Shown in pieces: positions 54,990 to 64,000 of a stretch of 64,000 nucleotides of DNA. Positions within the stretch are counted from its first letter, which is position 1. Each line of letters opens with the position of its first letter. A program made the position numbers and the translations under genes. The notes under the pieces were generated by a model. The model worked only from the letters and a program-made list of their open reading frames with translations. It had not been told where the DNA came from and ran no database searches. The DNA lies in NCBI RefSeq assembly GCF_900114635.1, contig NZ_FOTQ01000008.1, positions 62,001 to 126,000 on the forward strand. Direction: 5' to 3'. The stretch is from Shimia aestuarii (GTDB lineage: Bacteria; Pseudomonadota; Alphaproteobacteria; Rhodobacterales; Rhodobacteraceae).

Positions 54990-55367
54990 ATGGGGAACAA
55001 TGCCATGCGGGCAGGACTGACAGGATGGATCACGGCATTGGGCCTGCCGCTTTTGGTGGTGGCCTGTGGCATCAACGTGGCGCAGGGGCGCGGCGTATAC
55101 GAGCGAAATTGCGTGCAATGTCACGGGGATACCGGATTGGGCGATGGGCCGTTTGCGGACAAGTTGCTGAAGCCGCCCACGGATCTGACGGTTCTGGCGC
55201 GCAATAATGGCGGCACGTTTCCGGCCATGTATGTGACCGAGATCATCGATGGGCATTCGCGGTCTGAAGATTTTAGCGGCGCGATGCCTGAATTTGGCCC
55301 CGGTTTGGGGGGAGAAGAGTTGCAGCTTGGTCCGTTGGTGGATTATCTCGAGACCCTCCAGCGGTGA
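54990..55367 (+). CDS. Small c-type cytochrome, first of three in tandem
   Basis: A 125-residue class I cytochrome c. Heme attachment is CVQCH (C41, C44, H45) and the likely axial methionine is M99 in GAMPEFGP. The N-terminal hydrophobic segment ends LLVVAC, a possible lipobox with C26, so the protein may be lipid-anchored in the periplasm. The next two genes encode close relatives. The electron partners are unknown; no oxidase or dehydrogenase is adjacent. Confidence 0.85.
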   Translation: MGNNAMRAGLTGWITALGLPLLVVACGINVAQGRGVYERNCVQCHGDTGLGDGPFADKLLKPPTDLTVLARNNGGTFPAMYVTEIIDGHSRSEDFSGAMPEFGPGLGGEELQLGPLVDYLETLQR

Positions 55368-55395
55368 GCCGAACGCAGTCAACAGGGGTATAGCT

Positions 55396-55791
55396 ATGAA
55401 GAAACTGATTTTTTCGTTCCTGATCATGGGGATGTCCGGGGCCTGTATCGCGGGGGATGCTGAGGACGGGGCCGCGCTTTACATGGATCATTGCGCCACC
55501 TGTCACGGGATTGACCTGACCGGGCAGGGGCCGATGGCCGGGGTGATGGTGATCAAGCCGGCGGACCTGACCGCGCTCAGCGCAGGCAATGGCGGGGCGT
55601 TTCCGCTGGTCCGGGTGATCCAGCGCATTGACGGGCGCGATCCGCTGGTCAGCCATGGCAGCCCGATGCCGGTTTACGGCGACTTTTTCGAAGGGTTCGA
55701 CGTGGCGATGAAGACCGATGCGGGTCAGCCGATCATGACCTCGAAGCCGGTCGCGGACCTCGTGGAATATCTCAAGAGCGTACAGAAATGA
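55396..55791 (+). CDS. Small c-type cytochrome, second of three
   Basis: A 131-residue class I cytochrome c with CATCH (C33, C36, H37) and probable axial M91 in GSPMPVYGDF. The signal region MKKLIFSFLIMGMSGACIAG could be a normal signal peptide or a weak lipobox (C17). Between the axial methionine and the C-terminus it has an insertion (FDVAMKTDAGQPIMTSKP) shared in part with the third cytochrome. Its stop overlaps the next start by ATGA. Confidence 0.85.
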   Translation: MKKLIFSFLIMGMSGACIAGDAEDGAALYMDHCATCHGIDLTGQGPMAGVMVIKPADLTALSAGNGGAFPLVRVIQRIDGRDPLVSHGSPMPVYGDFFEGFDVAMKTDAGQPIMTSKPVADLVEYLKSVQK

Positions 55792-56192
55792 AATACTGGA
55801 TGATGGCGGCCGCTCTGGGCGTCGGGGCGATGGCCTGTGCCGAGGCGGAAATGCCCGAAGCCCCTGAAGGGGAAGCGATTTTTGCCGAGAACTGCGCGCT
55901 GTGCCATGGCGCGGGTGGGCGCGGAGACGGAGCGATTGCCGCCGGGTTGCGCCCCCGGCCCAGCGATCTGACACAGATTTCCCGGAGGGCCGGGGGGGCA
56001 TTTCCCGTGGCCGAGGTGTTGAGCCAGATCGACGGCTATGAGCGGGACGCGATTGCCGGAGTGGATATGCCGGAATTTGGCGCGCTTCTGGAGGGCGATC
56101 TTGTGCCGGTGGACACAGGTGACGGGGTGATGACGCCGACGCCGCGCCCGCTGGCGGCGCTGTTGGCCTATCTTGAGAGCATCCAGCGTTAG
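55788..56192 (+). CDS. Small c-type cytochrome, third of three
   Basis: A 134-residue class I cytochrome c with CALCH (C36, C39, H40) and probable axial M94 in GVDMPEFGALL. The signal ends GVGAMACAEA, again with a cysteine (C17) at a possible processing site, followed by an acidic linker (EMPEAPEGE). It overlaps the second cytochrome gene upstream and the 3' end of the convergent aminotransferase gene by 4 bp each. Confidence 0.85.
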   Translation: MKYWMMAAALGVGAMACAEAEMPEAPEGEAIFAENCALCHGAGGRGDGAIAAGLRPRPSDLTQISRRAGGAFPVAEVLSQIDGYERDAIAGVDMPEFGALLEGDLVPVDTGDGVMTPTPRPLAALLAYLESIQR

Positions 56193-57472
56193 GAAAGCGC
56201 CCGTGCCGCGGCGGTGATGGCGGATTGCGTGCGCGCGAGATCGTCATCGGTGAGCGCGAGGCAGGGATAGGTTTTGCCGGGCGATTTGAAGATGCCGTTG
56301 GCGCGCAGGCTTGCATTATAGGCGGCGGCGCGTGCGGTGTTGGAGGATTGCACATCGCGGTAATCGCGCACCGGAGTCTCGGTGAAAACCACTTCGAACA
56401 GGGTGGGGTCTCCGACAATCTGGTAGGGGTGTCCGGAGGCATCCAGCGCGGTGCGGGTCATGGCCATGACCTCTTCCCCCCGCTGGCGCAGGGTGTCATA
56501 GGCCCCGTCGCGGCGCAGGATTTCCAGCGTTTTGAGCCCGGCCACGGCAGCGACCGGGTTGCCCGAGAGCGTCCCCAGCATCATCAGCCAATTCTCGGCA
56601 CCGACCTTGGATTTGTCGAAATGGGCCATGATGTCGGCGCGCCCGGCGATGGCGGCAAGGGGCATGCCGCCGCCGATCACCTTGCCCAGCGTGCAGAGAT
56701 CGGGGGTCGCGCCGTAAAGCGCCTGCGCGCCGCCATAGGCAAAGCGAAAGCCAGTGACGACCTCGTCAAAGATCAGCAGGCAGCCATGTTTGTCGGCCTC
56801 ATCCCGCAGGGTTTGCAGGAAGCCGGGTTCGGGCGGGATGATGCGTTGCAGGGGTTCGACGATGATCGCGGCAACCTGTGGCCCGTATTCGGCAAGAAGC
56901 GAGCGTATATAGTCGATATCATTGAATGGCGCGATCAGCATGTGTTCCGCAACGGCGGCGGGGATGCCGGCGCTGTCGGGGATGGCCTGGGGGAAATTCG
57001 CGCGCTGTTCGGGGGCGAGGCTCATTTGCGCTTCGGCGGACATGCCATGGTAGCCGCCCTCGAACTTGATGATTCGGTCGCGCCCGGTGTAGGCGCGGGC
57101 AAGGCGCATGGCGTACATGTCGGCCTCGCCACCCGAGGCAAGAAAGCGGAGCTGTTCAGCGCAGGGCACGGCGGCGCAGATCTCTTCGGCAAGCTCGATG
57201 GCAAAGGGGTTGTTGGCAAAGAAGGTCATGCCATGAGGGAGTTGGGCGCAGATGGCGTCGATTACTTCGGGGGGATTGTGGCCCAGCAGCATCGGGCCGG
57301 AGCCGATCAGGTAGTCGACATAGGTGTTGCCGTCAGTATCGGTGACGCGGGCGCCGTGACCCGAAGCGATACAGATCGAAGGGTCGAAATTGCCTAACCC
57401 GCCTGCGGGAAAGACGGCGCGGGCGCGGGCGGCCCAATCGGTGTCGGAGGCAATCGGGTGCATGTCAGTCAC
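56189..57472 (-). CDS. Class III aminotransferase (glutamate-1-semialdehyde-mutase-like)
   Basis: A 427-residue PLP enzyme of the GSAM/class III group. It has the phosphate-loop SGGEADMYAMRLARAYTGRD, the pyridine-contacting Asp in CLLIFDEVVTGFRFAYGG and the Schiff-base lysine in LCTLGKVIGGGMPLAA. It is not the heme-pathway HemL as judged by divergent ends. It probably transfers an amino group from an amine or amino acid derived from the operon substrate. The start overlaps the upstream enolase-family gene (ATGA); last gene of the operon. Confidence 0.82.
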   Translation of the reverse strand: MTDMHPIASDTDWAARARAVFPAGGLGNFDPSICIASGHGARVTDTDGNTYVDYLIGSGPMLLGHNPPEVIDAICAQLPHGMTFFANNPFAIELAEEICAAVPCAEQLRFLASGGEADMYAMRLARAYTGRDRIIKFEGGYHGMSAEAQMSLAPEQRANFPQAIPDSAGIPAAVAEHMLIAPFNDIDYIRSLLAEYGPQVAAIIVEPLQRIIPPEPGFLQTLRDEADKHGCLLIFDEVVTGFRFAYGGAQALYGATPDLCTLGKVIGGGMPLAAIAGRADIMAHFDKSKVGAENWLMMLGTLSGNPVAAVAGLKTLEILRRDGAYDTLRQRGEEVMAMTRTALDASGHPYQIVGDPTLFEVVFTETPVRDYRDVQSSNTARAAAYNASLRANGIFKSPGKTYPCLALTDDDLARTQSAITAAARALS

Positions 57473-58572
57473 TCCAAGATTAGGTCGGGCGCGCCAAGGG
57501 CCGCGCGGTCGGGGGTGATGCCCAAACCGGGGCCGCTGGGCGGCGCAATCTGGCCATTGTCACGGGTGGGCCCGTAGGGCGCGAGGCGTGGGGCCACATA
57601 GCCCGAGAGATCGCAGGTATTGAGCAGGCGCGCGGGTGGGGTGCTGGCCGCGAGATGCAGGAGCGCAGCGGTGGTGATGTCGGAGCCCCATGTGTCTTCG
57701 ATGCAAAGTTTTGCGCCCAGATGCAGGCAAAGGTCGCGCGCGGCGCGGGTGGCGGAGAGGCCGCCGAACTTGGACAGCTTGAGGGCAACGGCGTCCATGA
57801 TGCCAAGCCGGTGTGCCTCGAGCAGGGAGGCGGTGTCATGCGCGTTTTCGTCAAGTTTCATCGGCAGGTTTGTGGCGGCGCGCACGCGGGCGCAATCGGC
57901 CAACGTGGCGCAGGGCTGTTCAAGCATGATGTCGAGATGCGCCACGGCGCGGCCCACGCGCGTTGCCTCAAGCGAGGTCGCGCCACAGTTCCAGTCGCCA
58001 TAGACCAGCGGGCCGGGGCCGACGGCGGCGCGGACCTTGGTCAGGCGTTCGACATCGGTTTGCCAGTCGCCCGATGCGCCGAGTTTGACCTGAAACTGTG
58101 TGATCCCAGTGGCTTGTGCTTCGCGCGCGATGGCGGCCATGTCGTCGGGCGCGATGCAGGTGATGGAGTGATAGAGCGGCATGCGCGCGGCCTGTTGCCC
58201 GCCGAGCAGGGCAAAGAGCGGCAGGTTTGCAGCCTGTCCGGTGAGATCCCAGAGCGCGATGTCGAGGGCGGATTTGGCATAGGCATGCCCCTGCAGATGG
58301 GCATTGGCGCGGGCCATGAGCGCTTCGGGTCCAATCGGGTTGGCACCGAGCAGGATCGGGGCCAGGTCGCTCAGCGCGGGCGCGGCGCCGCGCGCATAGG
58401 CGGGCAGGTAATGCGGGATCGGACAGACCTCGCCCCAACCGGTCAGCCCGGTGTCGGTGTCCAGTGCAAGGACCACGGTTTCGACCGTGTCACAGGTTTT
58501 GCCATCTGCCATGTAATAGGCCGCGTGGCTGGTCAGGGGCAGGTGCCAGAGCGAGATGCGGGTGAGTTTCAT
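57469..58572 (-). CDS. Enolase-superfamily enzyme (MR/MLE subgroup), first
   Basis: A 367-residue member of the mandelate racemase/muconate lactonising superfamily. It shows the capping domain start (LTRISLWHLPLTSHAAYYMA), QFQVKLG with a catalytic lysine, metal ligands in YGDWNCG, EQPCATL and DENAHD, and a second lysine in ALKLSKFGG. These enzymes abstract a proton alpha to a carboxylate. The layout recalls 4-hydroxyproline betaine epimerase (HpbD) and cis-3-hydroxyproline dehydratase, but the substrate is not proven. It overlaps the aminotransferase gene. Confidence 0.83.
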   Translation of the reverse strand: MKLTRISLWHLPLTSHAAYYMADGKTCDTVETVVLALDTDTGLTGWGEVCPIPHYLPAYARGAAPALSDLAPILLGANPIGPEALMARANAHLQGHAYAKSALDIALWDLTGQAANLPLFALLGGQQAARMPLYHSITCIAPDDMAAIAREAQATGITQFQVKLGASGDWQTDVERLTKVRAAVGPGPLVYGDWNCGATSLEATRVGRAVAHLDIMLEQPCATLADCARVRAATNLPMKLDENAHDTASLLEAHRLGIMDAVALKLSKFGGLSATRAARDLCLHLGAKLCIEDTWGSDITTAALLHLAASTPPARLLNTCDLSGYVAPRLAPYGPTRDNGQIAPPSGPGLGITPDRAALGAPDLILE

Positions 58573-58583
58573 GGGCGCCACGC

Positions 58584-58631
58584 GTGGGGGCGTTGCCCCC
58601 ACACCCCCGAAGTATTTCTGGCAAAATGAAG
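58584..58631 (+). repeat. Composite intergenic repeat, copy 6
   Basis: Hairpin GTGGGGGC/GCCCCCAC (58584-58602) and the tail CGAAGTATTTCTGGCAAAAT plus GA. It lies between two minus-strand genes of one operon, so here the element runs against transcription. Confidence 0.8.
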
Positions 58632-58633
58632 CA

Positions 58634-59746
58634 TCAGGGCATCTCGTAGGTTGCGGTGGGAGGACCAAGCATGTCCTCGTCGGGATGCACGCCAAGGCCG
58701 GGGGTGTCCGGCAGGGTGAGGTGACCGTTGGTGGCGCGGGGGCCGCGGCCGGGGGCGATTTCGGCGGTAATCATGTCCTGACAGGCCCAGACCGCGCGGC
58801 AGTTTGCGTCGGGGATGGTGGCGGCGAGGTGCAGCGCCTCGGTGTCGGCCAGCACGGAGCCACCGGTGGCCATGACAAACATGTCCATGCCATGGGTCAG
58901 TGCGATGTCGCGCATGCGCACGGCCTTGGTCAGCCCGCCAACGCGGTTGAGCTTGATGCCGAAGACCTCGGCCAGTCCGTCGCGGGCGATGCGGGCGGCG
59001 TCTTGCAGGGTAACGAGGGATTCGTCGACCGAAACCGGCGCGCTGTGCAGGGGGCGCAGGGCGGCGATATCGTCCAGCGTTTCGCAGGGCTGTTCGAACA
59101 TGACGTTCAGGTCCTCGGTGGCGGACATCACTCGCAGGGCCTGTTGGCGGGTCCAGCCGCGGTTGACGTCATAGAGGATGATCTCGTTTTCGGCGCGCAG
59201 GCTTTCCACATCGCGGATGCGGGCAATGTCGCGGGCCACGTCGCCGCCGATCTTGACCGAATGGGCGATATAGCCGCGCGCCCGGTAGCGGTCCATGACG
59301 GCGCGGGTGTCTTCGATGGTCTTGGCTCCGACGGAGGAGGCGATGGGGATTGGGCGGTTTGTGTGCGCGCCCACCAGGGCAGCAATGGAGAGGCCGGCGG
59401 CCTGTCCGGCGATATCCCAGCAGGCCATGTCGATGGGCGATTTGGCATAGAGATGCCCGGGCAGGGCAAGGTCCATGGCGCGCTCGACCGCAAGCAGGTG
59501 GCGCGGGTCAAGCCCGAGGATGAAGGGGGCCATGGTTTCGATCCCGGCGCGGATGCCGGGGCCGTGGGCGGGCACATAGGTGTGGCCCCATGGTGTGCCT
59601 TCGCCCCAGCCGACAAGCCCTTCGTCGGTTTCGAGTTTGACGAAGGTGGCATCGAGCGTTTCGAATTTCAGCCGTCCGCCCGAGAGCCAGTAGGGATGTT
59701 CCAGCGGCAGGTCGCGTTGATAGACGGTGATGCGGGTGAGTTTCAT
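58634..59746 (-). CDS. Enolase-superfamily enzyme (MR/MLE subgroup), second
   Basis: A 370-residue paralogue of the neighbouring enzyme. It starts LTRITVYQRDLPLEHPYWLS; the catalytic lysine motif is HSVKIGGD, metal ligands lie in LYDVNRGW, FEQPCETL and VDESLVT, and the second lysine in FGIKLNRVGG. All superfamily residues are present, so it should be active. A betaine, hydroxyproline-type or sugar-acid substrate is possible. The two enolase genes are separated by repeat copy 6. The upstream DddQ-like gene is 58 bp away. Confidence 0.83.
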   Translation of the reverse strand: MKLTRITVYQRDLPLEHPYWLSGGRLKFETLDATFVKLETDEGLVGWGEGTPWGHTYVPAHGPGIRAGIETMAPFILGLDPRHLLAVERAMDLALPGHLYAKSPIDMACWDIAGQAAGLSIAALVGAHTNRPIPIASSVGAKTIEDTRAVMDRYRARGYIAHSVKIGGDVARDIARIRDVESLRAENEIILYDVNRGWTRQQALRVMSATEDLNVMFEQPCETLDDIAALRPLHSAPVSVDESLVTLQDAARIARDGLAEVFGIKLNRVGGLTKAVRMRDIALTHGMDMFVMATGGSVLADTEALHLAATIPDANCRAVWACQDMITAEIAPGRGPRATNGHLTLPDTPGLGVHPDEDMLGPPTATYEMP

Positions 59747-59804
59747 GGCACGGCGTTCCGGACGGGGGCCGGGACCTCCTGATTGGCTTGTGTCGGTCTC
59801 GGAC

Positions 59805-60404
59805 TCATGCGCTCATCCTTGGCAGGCCGGTCAGCCCGGCGCCGCGCCAGAGTACCAGTGCCAGCACAGGGCTGTCCGTGGTGGTCATGGCGTGGCGTTG
59901 GTTGGAAAGATGATGGCGCGTGTCGCCGGGGCGCAGGGTTTCTGGAGGGCACCCCTCGGCCTCGAAGAGGGCTTTGCCTGCGATGATGTAGTAGAGTTCC
60001 TCGGCTTCGTGCTGGTGCCATGGATAGTAGAGATGCGCGCCCCAGTAGGCGATATAGGCGCGGATCGTGTCGGACTGGAAATGTCCTGTGGGCCCGACAA
60101 GCTCGAAATACCCATAGCGGGCGAGAAAATCTGCGCCGACCTCGTCCTTGGTATAGGTCTGTTGCCAGTCGGCGAAATCGCACACATCCCGGACCGCATC
60201 GCGCAGGGTCAGCGTGGCTTCGATATGACCATCGGCCCAGTCCCTGAGGATGTCGGCGGCGGGGACATGGCGGCGGGTGGGTTTGGTGTTGGGCAGGGCG
60301 AGGGGCCAGCCCGCGAAACCGAGCAGGGGCGGGGTCGCGGCCACGAGCATGGTCAGGGCGTGGTAAGCATTGGCAAAGGCGAGGGACGAGTCGGGTTGTG
60401 ACAT
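59805..60404 (-). CDS. dddQ: DMSP-lyase-family cupin (DddQ-like)
   Basis: A 199-residue protein of the dimethylsulfoniopropionate lyase family. The C-terminal cupin has all metal-site elements: HxHxxxE with H130, H132 and E136 (YYPWHQHEAEELYYIIAG), and motif 2 with PGD and H164xxxN168. Tyrosines at 120, 126 and 127 lie where DddQ enzymes use a tyrosine in catalysis. DddQ cleaves DMSP to dimethyl sulfide and acrylate. The enolase-type and FAD/GcvT neighbours fit dddQ loci as I remember them from other roseobacters. Some family members are weak or inactive on DMSP, so activity needs proof. Confidence 0.75.
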   Translation of the reverse strand: MSQPDSSLAFANAYHALTMLVAATPPLLGFAGWPLALPNTKPTRRHVPAADILRDWADGHIEATLTLRDAVRDVCDFADWQQTYTKDEVGADFLARYGYFELVGPTGHFQSDTIRAYIAYWGAHLYYPWHQHEAEELYYIIAGKALFEAEGCPPETLRPGDTRHHLSNQRHAMTTTDSPVLALVLWRGAGLTGLPRMSA

Positions 60405-60419
60405 GGGAAAACCTTTGGG

Positions 60420-61502
60420 TCAGGGGATCACGACGATATTTCCGGTATGTTGCTTGGCGATGAAGGCGGCTTGGGCGGTGCGCAGGTCCTTGAGCGGGTA
60501 GGTGGCGGCCAGCGCCGGTTTGATTTCACCTGCCTCGATGTAGCGGATGATGTTCTGCATTACCTCGGGCGGGATCACGGTCGAGCCGGTGAAAGTGAGG
60601 TCGCGCAGGTAGAAGGTGCGCAGGTCCAACTCAACAAGCGGTCCGGCGATGGCGCCCGAGCAGGTGTAGCGCCCGCCGCGTTCAAGGATGTCGATCAGCT
60701 TTGGCCAATCGGGGCCGCCGACGATATCGGCGACCACGGTGATCTTTTCATTCGCGAGCGCGGCGCGCAGGTTTTCGGGTGCGCGGGGCAGGATGCGATC
60801 CGGTCCGAGTTGGGCGACCTCGGCGTGTTTCGTTTCCGAGGCCATGGCGATCACGCGCGCGCCGCGGCGTTTGGCAAGCTGCACCAGCGCGCCTCCAACG
60901 CCCCCCGAGGCGCCGGGGATTAGCACGGTGTCCGCCTTGGTCACGTTGGCGCGGGTGAGCATGCCTTCGGCGGTGGAATAGGAACAGGAAAAAGTGGCCA
61001 GTTCCGCGTCGCTGAGCGGGGAGGAGATGGCGAGGGCATTGCTGGCGGGGATGGTGGCATATTGCGCAAAGCCGCCATCGCGCTCGGAGCCGAAATAGCC
61101 GGTCTTGTCCTTGTTCTCCAGATCCTCGGGGTCGCGCAACCAGTTGTCGGTGAGGACACGTTCGCCGATGCGGGCCGGGTCAATACCGTCGCCCACGGCA
61201 ACAATCCGGCCGCAGATATCGGCGCCCTGGATTCGCGGGAAGGTGAGCGGACGCCCTCCCCATGTCGGGTCGTCTTCATCGACCGCGTCAAAGGCGCCGC
61301 CGGTGGTCGCATCATCGACGGCCTTGGAGTACCAGCCCGACCTTGTGTTGACGTCGGTATTGTTGAGGCCGCAGGCGCCGACCTTGATCAGCACCTCGCC
61401 GGGGGCGGGGCTGGGGGTGGGCCAGTCCTCGCGCCAGTCATAAGCGTCAAGATCGCCGTGGCCGGTGAGGATCATGGCCTGCATGGTGGCGGGAACGGTC
61501 AT
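60420..61502 (-). CDS. Medium-chain dehydrogenase/quinone oxidoreductase-like enzyme
   Basis: A 360-residue member of the MDR superfamily. The N-terminal GroES-like domain has GACGLNNTDVNTRSGWYSKA and the family glycines in GADICGRIVAVGDG; the NAD(P)-binding motif is GASGGVGGALVQLAK. Zinc ligands of classical alcohol dehydrogenases are not complete, so a quinone- or enoyl-reductase-type reaction is more likely. In DMSP catabolism an MDR enzyme (AcuI) reduces acryloyl-CoA, but this protein is longer and I do not claim it is AcuI. It overlaps the FAD/GcvT gene by ATGA. Confidence 0.8.
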   Translation of the reverse strand: MTVPATMQAMILTGHGDLDAYDWREDWPTPSPAPGEVLIKVGACGLNNTDVNTRSGWYSKAVDDATTGGAFDAVDEDDPTWGGRPLTFPRIQGADICGRIVAVGDGIDPARIGERVLTDNWLRDPEDLENKDKTGYFGSERDGGFAQYATIPASNALAISSPLSDAELATFSCSYSTAEGMLTRANVTKADTVLIPGASGGVGGALVQLAKRRGARVIAMASETKHAEVAQLGPDRILPRAPENLRAALANEKITVVADIVGGPDWPKLIDILERGGRYTCSGAIAGPLVELDLRTFYLRDLTFTGSTVIPPEVMQNIIRYIEAGEIKPALAATYPLKDLRTAQAAFIAKQHTGNIVVIP

Positions 61503-63982
61503 TCGGCGGCCTCCTGCGTGGCGTCGGTTCGGGGAAGGAGGGAGCCTGGATCGTAGGCGGCTTGGACCAGGACACGGGCGGGGCGGGGCTGGCCCGCGAT
61601 GATCACCGTGAGGTCGATGCCGGGGGTGGCAGCAGCGGGTTTGAGATAGGCAAAGGCGAGGATTTTGCCGACCGTGTGGCCATAGGCGACCGAGGCGGTG
61701 GAGCCGACCACGGTATCGCCCATGAGCACGGCTTCGCCGCCATGGCCATCATGTGTCCCGTCAGGATCAATCTCGAGATAGGTGCAGATCCATGGCAGGT
61801 TGGATTGGGCGCTGGTGCGGGTTGCTTCGGCCCCGAGGTAGTCCTTGTCGAGTTTCACGAAACGCATGACATTGGCTTCGGGCAGGGTGACTTCGTTGGT
61901 GAGTTCGCCTGCGCCGGGGAAGGCCTTTTCCATGCGCAGGGCGTTCATGGCGAAAGAGCCGTAATTGGCGATGCCGTGAGGCTGGCCCGCCTGCCAGAGC
62001 GCGTCATAGATCGCGGGGGCGGCGGCGTTGGGCGTGTGCAACTCCCAGCCCAGTTCCCCGGCATAGGACATGCGGAAGGCCCAGATTTTATGGCCCGCAA
62101 CGGTGATTTCGCGGGCCGAGAGCCATCGGAAACCGGCGTTGGAGAGGTCGGCGTCGGTGCATTGCGAGAGCACGTCGCGGGACAGGGGGCCGTTCAGCGA
62201 AAGCGCCGACCAGTCGCTGGAAAGGCAGGTGATGGTGGCGTCGGCATCGCCTTGGTGGCGGTGCAGGTGGTCGAGCAGGCGTTGCTCAAAGAAGGCGGCG
62301 CAGACGAGATAGAAACGGTCTGCGGCCATGCGCACGATGGTGGTTTCAAGCTCGATCCGTCCGCGACGGTTGAGCATATGGGTCAGGGTGATCGAGCCGT
62401 CTTTTTGCGGCATGCGATTGGCGGTGAGACGGTCGAGCAGGGCGTAAGCGTCGGGGCCTTCCACAATGACCTTGGTAAAGGCGGTCACGTCCATGAGGCC
62501 GACCCGTTCACGCACGGCCTTGCATTCAAAAGCGACCATGTCGTGCACCACGTTGCGGGTGAAGCTGTAATGGTCACGCTGTTCCACGCCATTGCGGGCG
62601 AACCAACGGGGGCGCTCATGGCCATAGACCTCTTCATGTACGGCGCCCGCCTTTTTCAGCTGATCATGCAGGGGTGAGGGTTTCACGGGGCGTCCGGTGA
62701 GCCGGTTGAAATGCGGGAACGGAATCTCGTGGCGCAGGCAATAGTCTTCCTTGGCCTTGATCACCTGCCATTCGGGGGTGGCGTATTCTCCGAAGCGGCG
62801 TGGGTCGTAGTCGCGCATCGAGATGTCGGCGGCGCCATGCACCATCCAGCGGGCCAGTTCGCGGGTCAGCCCCGGCCCCCAGCCGATGCCGATCTGGGTG
62901 CCGCAGCAGCACCAGTAGTTTTCCACGCCGGGTGCGGGGCCGATCAGCGGGTTGCCGTCAGGCGGGTGCGAGATGGCGCCGTGCACATCGCGGGTTATGC
63001 CGAGATCGGCAAAGATCGGCATACGATCCAGCGCGTTTTCGAGCCATGGCATGACGCGGTCGTAATCGGCCTCGAACAGCCAGTTTTCATACTCCCACGG
63101 ACACTCATCGAGCCAGACCGCGTTGGGATTGGCTTTCTCGTAGATGCCGATCAGGCCCTTTTTCTGTTCCATGCGGATATAGCCGGAGACCTTCTTGTCA
63201 TCTCGGATGACGGGAAGTTCGGTGGGCAGGTCGCGGAATTCCGGCACTTCGTCGGTGACGAAATAGTGGTGCGTCATCGAGGTCATGGGCAGTTGCAGCC
63301 CTGACCAGTCGCCCATCTGGCGGGCATAGGTGCCGCCCGCATTGACCACGTGTTCGCATGTGATCGTGCCCTGATCGGTTTCGACCACCCATTCATGGCC
63401 GCGCTTTGTGATGTTGCTGGCGCGGCAGCGGCGGATGATGCGCACACCCTTGGCGCGGGCCCCTGCGGCCATGGCCATGGTGACGTTGGTCGGATCGACA
63501 TGGCCGTCATCAGGGGTATGCAGCGCGCCCAGAACGCCGTCGAGATTGTAGAAGGGATGCAGTGCGCCGACGCGGTCGGGGCTGACCAGCTCGATATTGA
63601 AGCCAAGCGAACGGCCCACAGACAGGGTGTGACGCAGCCAGTCCATTTCATCTTCGGTATAAGCCAGCCGGAAGGACCCGCAGCCGTGCCATGTCACGGG
63701 CTGGCCGGTTTCCTGCTCCAGCCCGCCGGAATAGAGGCCGATATTGTAATCGACACATTTGCCGAGCGAGAAAGACGAGGTGGAATGCGTGATCTGGCCC
63801 GCGGCGTGCCACGTGGAGCCGGAGGTCAGTTCGGCCTTTTCCAGAAGCACCGTGTCGCCGCCCCAGCCTTCGTGGGCGAGGTGATAGGCGAGGCCGACGC
63901 CCATGACACCGCCGCCGACAATGACAACGCGGGCGTGGCTTGGAAGGGAAGATGAGGACATGAGGCCGACTCGCTCTGGCAC
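61499..63982 (-). CDS. FAD-dependent oxidoreductase with GcvT domain (dimethylglycine dehydrogenase-like)
   Basis: An 827-residue two-part enzyme. Residues 17-400 are a DAO-type FAD domain (VVIVGGGVMGVGLAYHLAHE) with SGSTWHAAG; its H59 lies where dimethylglycine oxidases bind FAD covalently. Residues 460-815 form the GcvT folate-binding halves (VRERVGLMDVTAFTKVIVEG, RMSYAGELGWELHTPN). It should remove N-methyl groups from a methylated amine, passing them to tetrahydrofolate. The GTG at 63982 has a good AGGAAA site; an ATG at 63961 is possible. First visible gene of the leftward operon. Confidence 0.85.
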   Translation of the reverse strand: MPERVGLMSSSSLPSHARVVIVGGGVMGVGLAYHLAHEGWGGDTVLLEKAELTSGSTWHAAGQITHSTSSFSLGKCVDYNIGLYSGGLEQETGQPVTWHGCGSFRLAYTEDEMDWLRHTLSVGRSLGFNIELVSPDRVGALHPFYNLDGVLGALHTPDDGHVDPTNVTMAMAAGARAKGVRIIRRCRASNITKRGHEWVVETDQGTITCEHVVNAGGTYARQMGDWSGLQLPMTSMTHHYFVTDEVPEFRDLPTELPVIRDDKKVSGYIRMEQKKGLIGIYEKANPNAVWLDECPWEYENWLFEADYDRVMPWLENALDRMPIFADLGITRDVHGAISHPPDGNPLIGPAPGVENYWCCCGTQIGIGWGPGLTRELARWMVHGAADISMRDYDPRRFGEYATPEWQVIKAKEDYCLRHEIPFPHFNRLTGRPVKPSPLHDQLKKAGAVHEEVYGHERPRWFARNGVEQRDHYSFTRNVVHDMVAFECKAVRERVGLMDVTAFTKVIVEGPDAYALLDRLTANRMPQKDGSITLTHMLNRRGRIELETTIVRMAADRFYLVCAAFFEQRLLDHLHRHQGDADATITCLSSDWSALSLNGPLSRDVLSQCTDADLSNAGFRWLSAREITVAGHKIWAFRMSYAGELGWELHTPNAAAPAIYDALWQAGQPHGIANYGSFAMNALRMEKAFPGAGELTNEVTLPEANVMRFVKLDKDYLGAEATRTSAQSNLPWICTYLEIDPDGTHDGHGGEAVLMGDTVVGSTASVAYGHTVGKILAFAYLKPAAATPGIDLTVIIAGQPRPARVLVQAAYDPGSLLPRTDATQEAAE

Positions 63983-64000
63983 GGTTGTTTCCTGTGGACA

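Follow-up and report, generated by a model that had tools for sequence, protein, structure and literature searches.

The cupin family to which the dimethylsulfoniopropionate (DMSP) lyase DddQ belongs reportedly includes enzymes of unknown function, as the title of a 2018 study by Lei et al. has it. Ocean surveys count dddQ as a gene for the release of dimethyl sulfide (DMS) (for example PMC8520302, in the sections available). The closest described loci are those of Ruegeria pomeroyi DSS-3 (SPO1596, with the medium-chain dehydrogenase/reductase (MDR) gene SPO1593) and Roseovarius nubinhibens (dddQ1-dddQ2, with the MDR gene ISM_14095), where dddQ is linked to an MDR that does not belong to the AcuI sub-family (PMC3338564, in its accessible part). 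The same pairing of a DddQ-type cupin with a non-AcuI MDR is found in the locus analysed here, which lies in a 64,000-nucleotide stretch of the Shimia aestuarii genome (contig NZ_FOTQ01000008.1, positions 62,001 to 126,000; hereafter the window). By its dddQ gene and MDR neighbour the type of locus is already known; its betaine-demethylation character, the optionality of its cupin and the cupin's repeated presence in the operon make it worth testing. The literature searched (dddQ with mandelate racemase or enolase) yielded no account of the larger set of genes around dddQ, and SPO1593-SPO1595 and SPO1597-SPO1599 are mentioned there only in PMC3338564. We conclude with moderate confidence that the dddQ-type locus primarily serves the catabolism of a quaternary-ammonium acid (a betaine) and is equipped with an accessory cupin lyase and a reductase.

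The operon consists of six genes on the reverse strand of the window, at the place where the initial annotation had put a DddQ-type cupin with two enolase paralogues, and Pfam agrees. From upstream to downstream they encode a dimethylglycine dehydrogenase (DMGDH)-like FAD/folate N-demethylase (61499-63961, with its ATG at 63961 and a possible GTG start at 63982; DAO, FAO_M, GCV_T and GCV_T_C), an MDR-family oxidoreductase that is not AcuI (60420-61502; PF08240/PF00107, ADH_N/ADH_zinc_N), a DddQ-type cupin of the DMSP lyase and lyase-like family (59805-60404; PF16867, DMSP_lyase), the enolase-superfamily enzyme EnoA, an orthologue of PDB entry 3eez (58634-59746; MR_MLE), a second such enzyme, EnoB, presumably of a free-amine type (57469-58572; PF13378/PF02746, MR_MLE), and AT3, a class III pyridoxal phosphate-dependent aminotransferase resembling glutamate-1-semialdehyde aminomutase (GSAM) (56189-57472, GTG start; Aminotran_3). 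Where several ATGA overlaps had been claimed there are two four-base overlaps, and only the first is ATGA (61499-61502), the other being GTGA (57469-57472); the remaining gaps between the genes are 61, 58 and 15 bases. None of the six proteins reaches a curated NCBIfam cut-off among the matches listed, so that their families are clear and their specific functions are not. The gene set is more than a chance assembly, because it recurs across genera.

The strongest new support for the betaine idea is a CntA-like Rieske oxygenase encoded just beyond the window edge. The DMGDH-like gene is separated by 70 bases from a divergent RpiR-Rieske unit; the first 39 of these bases are in the window (63962-64000, with the RpiR side on the forward strand), and the unit starts at 64032 in window numbering, which is position 10033 of L002, our label for the locus covering the DNA past the window end. 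It comprises an RpiR-family regulator (HTH_6 and SIS; L002:10033-10920) and a Rieske oxygenase alpha subunit (L002:10917-12005), followed by GFA, GST and carboxymuconolactone-decarboxylase-family (CMD) genes, all on the forward strand and outside the window. Among solved structures, carnitine monooxygenase CntA is nearest to the Rieske protein (205 bits), and then come 3vca, which we take to be the stachydrine demethylase Stc2, and 4qup, named a demethylase in its structure entry (122 bits each); the Rieske/ring-hydroxylating architecture is common to CntA, Stc2 and the window-locus protein. The Rieske protein scores well under the NCBIfam cut-off for glycine betaine monooxygenase GbcA (148 bits versus 670), and no reductase gene was recognised beside the Rieske gene at the window's locus.

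Together with the DMGDH-like protein and the aminotransferase, the Rieske oxygenase makes up a core that reads as a route in which a quaternary ammonium acid is N-demethylated step by step and then undergoes transamination and oxidation. The DMGDH-like protein aligns with the DMGDH 5l46 over residues 8-806 (501.2 bits) and has, along its full length, the FAD oxidase and GcvT-type folate domains of the dimethylglycine dehydrogenase family. AT3 matches PF00202 with 197.7 bits and has the GSAM 5i92 as its best PDB match (305.9 bits); the haem-pathway GSAM itself was rejected on NCBIfam scores below the cut-offs (375.6 versus 398 and 347.2 versus 527.3). In the proposed route the CntA-like oxygenase would remove the first N-methyl group, the DMGDH-like flavoprotein would remove the remaining methyl groups and hand them to folate, the class III aminotransferase would remove the amine, and an aldehyde dehydrogenase (ALDH), whose gene lies close by in a third of the loci, would oxidise the product. 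Read by eye, 12 of the 35 EnoA-bearing loci described below have an ALDH gene among their neighbours and 10 have a GFA gene. An N-methylated betaine had initially been proposed as the substrate that would unite all the genes; the CntA-like oxygenase, the nearby ALDH and GFA genes and three tryptophans of EnoA (see below) speak for it, but the cupin turns out to be an optional member of the set. The core might instead be specialised for an omega- or beta-ammonio acid (beta-alanine betaine, gamma-butyrobetaine, carnitine or a betaine-lipid head group), an idea that has CntA, as the nearest solved Rieske protein, on its side and that we nevertheless regard as somewhat unlikely; the corresponding route of three demethylations, transamination to a semialdehyde and oxidation we rate no higher. 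Beta-alanine betaine is the nitrogen analogue of DMSP, and one related locus (L255) combines Rieske, DMGDH and aminotransferase genes with an ALDH gene that adjoins the Rieske gene, the encoded protein being nearest to betaine-aldehyde/aminobutyraldehyde dehydrogenase models and below their cut-offs. By itself, however, such a substrate leaves two or three alpha-proton-abstracting enolases unexplained, and the window's own locus has a GFA gene but no ALDH gene.

The enolases point to betaines as well. EnoA is 84% identical to 3eez (699 bits), presumably a Ruegeria pomeroyi protein; a search of 295 genomes of the family and 25 of the genus for an EnoA identical to 3eez reached 92% identity at best. 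The best PDB match of EnoB is 4mgg (257 bits), which we take to be LhpJ. For both enzymes the best solved relatives are 4mgg, 2qdd, 4e8g, 2rdx, 2pce, 2ps2, 2pmq, 4h2h and 3eez, with the next score far lower; of these we assume 4e8g (with 4j1o) and 2pmq/4h2h to be HpbD from Paracoccus denitrificans and Pelagibaca bermudensis, respectively. The sugar-acid clades that might have undone the initial proposal are not where these enzymes fall: sugar-acid dehydratases were ruled out since both enzymes find their best solved relatives in the 4mgg/4e8g/2pmq group, and the nearest enzymes are those of the betaine epimerase/hydroxyproline dehydratase group. Both stay below the hydroxyproline dehydratase cut-off of 500, with scores of 302.7 for EnoA and 326.2 for EnoB.

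Residue conservation was followed in sets of 54 EnoA, 67 EnoB and 38 EnoC sequences (50, 61 and 33 different ones), EnoC being a third enolase of related operons; the sets were picked by identity (62-65% or more) to the copy in the window or in locus L040. Two catalytic lysines and the D/E/D metal ligands are invariant in all three sets (K165, D193, E218, D241 and K265 in EnoA; K163, D193, E218, D241 and K265 in EnoB's own numbering). The tryptophans W20, W53 and W320 are present in all 54 EnoA sequences, and tryptophan is absent from these columns in EnoB, which has I53, C320 and, in 46 of 67 sequences, a tyrosine at 20, and in EnoC, which has C53 and T320; 4mgg (L53, T320) likewise lacks the tryptophan set. 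In the enolase fold, positions 20 and 53 belong to active-site capping loops and position 320 lies near the barrel end. W320 is common to EnoA and 4e8g, and we take it to have a role in HpbD. EnoA, a member of the same enolase-superfamily group, carries the HpbD-type residues: the two catalytic lysines, the D/E/D ligands and the tryptophan at column 320. From these patterns we infer that EnoA may bind a quaternary ammonium substrate and EnoB and EnoC demethylated ones. EnoA would then remove the alpha-proton of the intact betaine, as an epimerase like HpbD, with its three tryptophans likely lining the pocket, and EnoB, together with EnoC where present, would take the alpha-proton of the demethylated acid in an epimerisation or dehydration. 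In one genome (G109:C19, locus L052) the EnoA-like match contains a single in-frame TAG, and this copy may be broken or misassembled.

A more specific version of the betaine idea, a hydroxyproline betaine, had also been put forward, and it stays a candidate without being singled out, since some enolase-free relatives of the core keep the aminotransferase. In its full form the operon would degrade a hydroxyproline- or proline-type betaine, with EnoA as an HpbD-like 2-epimerase and EnoB as an LhpJ-like dehydratase of 3-hydroxyproline, which we consider improbable. HpbD-type systems have an accompanying Rieske demethylase, as does the window locus, and the nearest solved enolases and the shared W320 fit such a substrate. 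So does locus L257, where DAO, alpha-ketoglutarate-semialdehyde-type ALDH, DapA-family and amino-acid ABC transporter genes lie near the Rieske gene; this neighbourhood is reminiscent of hydroxyproline catabolism, but in one case only. Against it stand the identity of the window enolases to 4e8g and 4mgg, only 35-39% (35-36% in the comparison with HpbD systems), their scores below the hydroxyproline dehydratase cut-off, and the conserved aminotransferase, kept even in some enolase-free loci, which fits poorly with proline, a secondary amine. The window operon further differs from HpbD systems in having an aminotransferase, a cupin and an MDR in addition, and no hydroxyproline oxidase or deaminase was recognised in its core. 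LhpJ acts on cis-3-hydroxy-L-proline and has been compared with hydroxyproline betaine 2-epimerase and proline betaine racemase (PMC5144071, in the part available).

The gene set is co-conserved, a point on which the initial proposal had been staked and which was assessed in 295 Rhodobacteraceae genomes from 294 genera. A cupin match (E up to 0.001) occurs in 149 of them and an EnoA match (E up to 1e-100) in 35, and the loci of all 35 EnoA-bearing genomes were compared in a table read by eye. The Rieske, RpiR, DMGDH-like, EnoA, EnoB and AT3 genes stand together in 24 of the 35; the remaining 11 comprise five truncated at a contig end (G078, G079, G102, G139, G160) and six in which the set is incomplete or rearranged (G109, G176, G194, G200, G201, G210), G194 having diverged copies of all six genes. 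Among named contigs, we took the 80 loci, out of 180, whose cupins most resemble that of the window, an uneven sample with titles that include Nioella, Mameliella, Roseovarius, Ruegeria, Shimia and Tropicibacter: a DMGDH-like orthologue (65% identity or more) is present in 34 and the combination of Rieske, DMGDH-like, AT3 and enolase genes in 28. Six Rhizobiaceae-titled loci have only the MDR (60-64%), directly before the cupin, and the Leisingera and SAR11 cupins listed are in other contexts.

Beyond the family, a sample of 385 alphaproteobacterial genomes contained a Rieske match (E up to 1e-90) in 21 and an EnoB match (E up to 1e-80) in 26. Of the 19 Rieske genomes that belong to genera other than that of the window, 16 are covered by the 20 regions we examined; two of these regions (L259, L260) are short contigs. 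Judged by eye, Rieske, DMGDH-like and aminotransferase genes occur together in nine of the 16 loci (L255-L258, L261, L262, L268-L270; the Rieske gene of L269 is counted from the class-wide search). EnoB is the sole addition to the core in L257 and L258, and EnoA, EnoB and the MDR are added in L256; L266 has a cupin-MDR-Rieske array beside the DMGDH gene and no aminotransferase, and in L273 a PotF-type polyamine ABC transporter lies beside AT3-MDR-Rieske. The enolases, the MDR and the cupin are additions that would widen or adapt the core route. In the same sample a cupin (E up to 1e-15) is present in eight of the 21 Rieske genomes and in 29 of the 364 others, and it lies beside the Rieske gene on the same contig only in the window genome (G000), G210 and G537. 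Genes resembling the trimethylamine methyltransferase MttB were seen near the Rieske core at L266:14649-16220 and L261:7206-8558 (TIGR02369, below cut-off), and by eye at L092:1812-3332, where such a gene adjoins an MDR (53%) and an enolase (28%).

The cupin itself is a clear member of the DddQ family. It scores 76.3 bits against Pfam DMSP_lyase (gathering cut-off 27) and 168.7 bits against the DddQ 5jso, and its PDB matches at E up to 1e-20 are five sequences, all named DMSP lyase and three of them DddQ. The residues Y, H, H, E, Y, H and W are retained at the columns aligned with 5jso, the metal ligands and catalytic tyrosines, in agreement with the metal motifs read initially. The roles of the metal ligands and tyrosines are in part set out in the available text of PMC5395565. 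A tree was built from 124 cupins and three PDB chains (5jso, 4b29 and 5cu1), with no DddL, DddK or DddW sequences and with 15 of 139 cupin matches left out as shorter than 130 residues or duplicate. The window cupin falls among the crystallised DMSP lyases, as had been expected of a DddQ, and an operon cupin is the nearest row for each of the three chains. The likeness of the window's locus to those of R. pomeroyi and R. nubinhibens is known from 3eez and from the accessible part of PMC3338564, but in the tree the window cupin belongs to a separate, well-supported seven-row clade (Shimodaira-Hasegawa-like approximate likelihood ratio test, SH-aLRT, 99). By context, 57 of the 124 cupins were labelled operon, 12 MDR only and 55 solo. 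The operon label is clustered on the tree (27 changes versus a shuffled mean of 42; none of 500 shuffles was as low), and well-supported branches force at least 13 context changes, a figure that may be too high since short contigs cause some wrong solo or MDR-only labels. It follows that cupins of several different DddQ-like lineages share this one operon, which gains, losses or a mixture of them brought about. A second, small cupin (Cupin_2, about 95 residues) is encoded at L035:11428-11712, L040:11411-11695 and L149:10596-10883, either between EnoC and EnoA or directly after the DddQ-like cupin.

The cupin's most faithful partner is the MDR, which by eye is present in 17 of 18 cupin-plus operons and also in 13 of 16 cupin-minus ones. 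It matches PDB 4j6f with 314.5 bits and shows, read by eye, no catalytic-zinc Cys motif, which fits a double-bond reductase; the acryloyl-CoA reductase AcuI was rejected for it (39.5 bits versus a cut-off of 440). A second companion is EnoC, found in 12 of 18 cupin-plus and one of 16 cupin-minus operons (Fisher p=0.0004, kinship ignored), although the window operon itself is without it. A strong cupin (match E up to about 2e-20) is present in 22 of the 35 EnoA genomes versus 25 of the 260 others, so that cupin and EnoA are associated. In the mechanism we propose, the cupin would bind a carboxylate on its metal, abstract the alpha-proton and expel the beta-substituent of a related or side-branch substrate, and the adjoining MDR would reduce the resulting double bond; chemically, a lyase that abstracts an alpha-proton and a double-bond reductase acting after it make a coherent pair, and DMSP, a sulfonium look-alike of a short betaine, would fit the same cupin site. 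It is possible, though on balance doubtful, that the operon cupins evolved as betaine-pathway lyases acting on an ammonio acid or a betaine-derived hydroxy acid, with the MDR reducing the product and DMSP cleavage as a side activity or second role.

Several observations weigh against our reading of the locus, and the first concern the cupin's place in it. Of the 35 EnoA genomes, 18 have the cupin in the operon and one (G200) has it next to EnoA with the core absent, while the operons of the other 16 have none, so the core does not need it; complete core operons have it in 14 of 24 cases and lack it in 10. No gene replacing the missing cupin was seen between the MDR (or DMGDH) gene and EnoA, except EnoC in G223; in the cupin-minus locus L182 the MDR and EnoA genes overlap, and in G139 the contig ends right after EnoA, so that a cupin further on is possible there. 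Since the cupin is missing from many operons and its position is empty, it is an optional part. A strong cupin lies elsewhere in the genome in three of the 16 cupin-minus cases (G139, G176, G269). The seven DddQ columns are essentially invariant in operon, MDR-only and solo cupins (three odd cells among 124 x 7), and no active-site difference at these columns separates operon from solitary cupins; residues alone therefore cannot tell a DMSP lyase from another lyase. DMSP induces dddQ, and dddQ mutations lowered DMS production by 97% in R. pomeroyi and by 20% in R. nubinhibens, according to the sections at hand of the review PMC5395565. As to the core, L255, L261, L262 and L270 have it without enolase, MDR or cupin in the locus, and assigning all three to a single route is therefore a matter of inference. 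Identity is low, 40-43%, for the aminotransferases of L261, L262 and L270, and a different contig of the L270 genome carries an EnoB homologue. The Rieske gene of L264 and that of L265 occur without DMGDH or aminotransferase.

On this evidence a cupin that is a true DMSP lyase in vivo is a serious rival, if in our estimate an unlikely one: shared regulation alone would account for its place in a betaine operon, because phytoplankton release DMSP and N-betaines together, and it would carry out no betaine step. The activity, induction and mutant phenotypes of DddQ (PMC5395565, as above), the retention of all active-site columns, the operon's ability to do without the cupin and the 55 of 124 tree rows in which a cupin stands alone all fit such a role. 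What fits it less well is the high Km for DMSP, 22 mM, of the R. lacuscaerulensis DddQ (same source and portion) and the linked MDR, which is not AcuI-like and whose R. nubinhibens copy left an E. coli yhdH mutant sensitive to acrylate and so did not stand in for YhdH/AcuI (PMC3338564, in its accessible part). The cupin moreover accompanies EnoC, and the MDR even outside the operon. The initial suggestion that the real cupin substrate is something other than DMSP is weakened by the report of DMSP cleavage by DddQ in vivo in the available text of PMC5395565. Both a DMSP role and a betaine-derived role could hold if the cupin has two substrates, and DMS release may be only part of what it normally does, or no part of it.

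Under the betaine reading, the gene neighbourhood offers a concrete candidate context for the other function of the cupin family, namely betaine demethylation. The orphan crystal structure 3eez, which represents EnoA, gains a likely substrate class, and operon sets with and without the cupin and EnoC are now available for comparison. If the cupins are indeed betaine-pathway lyases, dddQ counts in marine metagenomes would partly report the breakdown of nitrogenous osmolytes and not DMS release.

Another demethylation context for the cupin family is found in one SAR11 clade, where in nine of nine loci (L113:9064-10573, L120, L124-L128, L130 and L132) the cupin gene directly follows a homocysteine S-methyltransferase (PF02574) gene. 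These loci also carry CoA-transferase III, ALDH and glyoxalase homologues and a TRAP-type binding protein. The nine loci speak for our reading of the operon, and the absence of the methyltransferase gene from three other SAR11 cupin loci (L114, L121, L122) speaks against it.

Two further features adjoin the operon or its relatives. At L043:3274-4828 (reverse strand) and in six other loci, a protein pair with weak arylmalonate-decarboxylase-type and Sulfotransfer_5 matches is encoded, often adjoining the Rieske gene. Arylmalonate-decarboxylase-type proteins are related to the aspartate racemase superfamily. The algal DMSP lyase Alma1 belongs to that superfamily (PMC8520302, in the sections available). 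In the window, three tandem genes for small c-type cytochromes occupy positions 54990-56192 on the forward strand, and the last of them overlaps the end of the aminotransferase gene by four bases, tail to tail.

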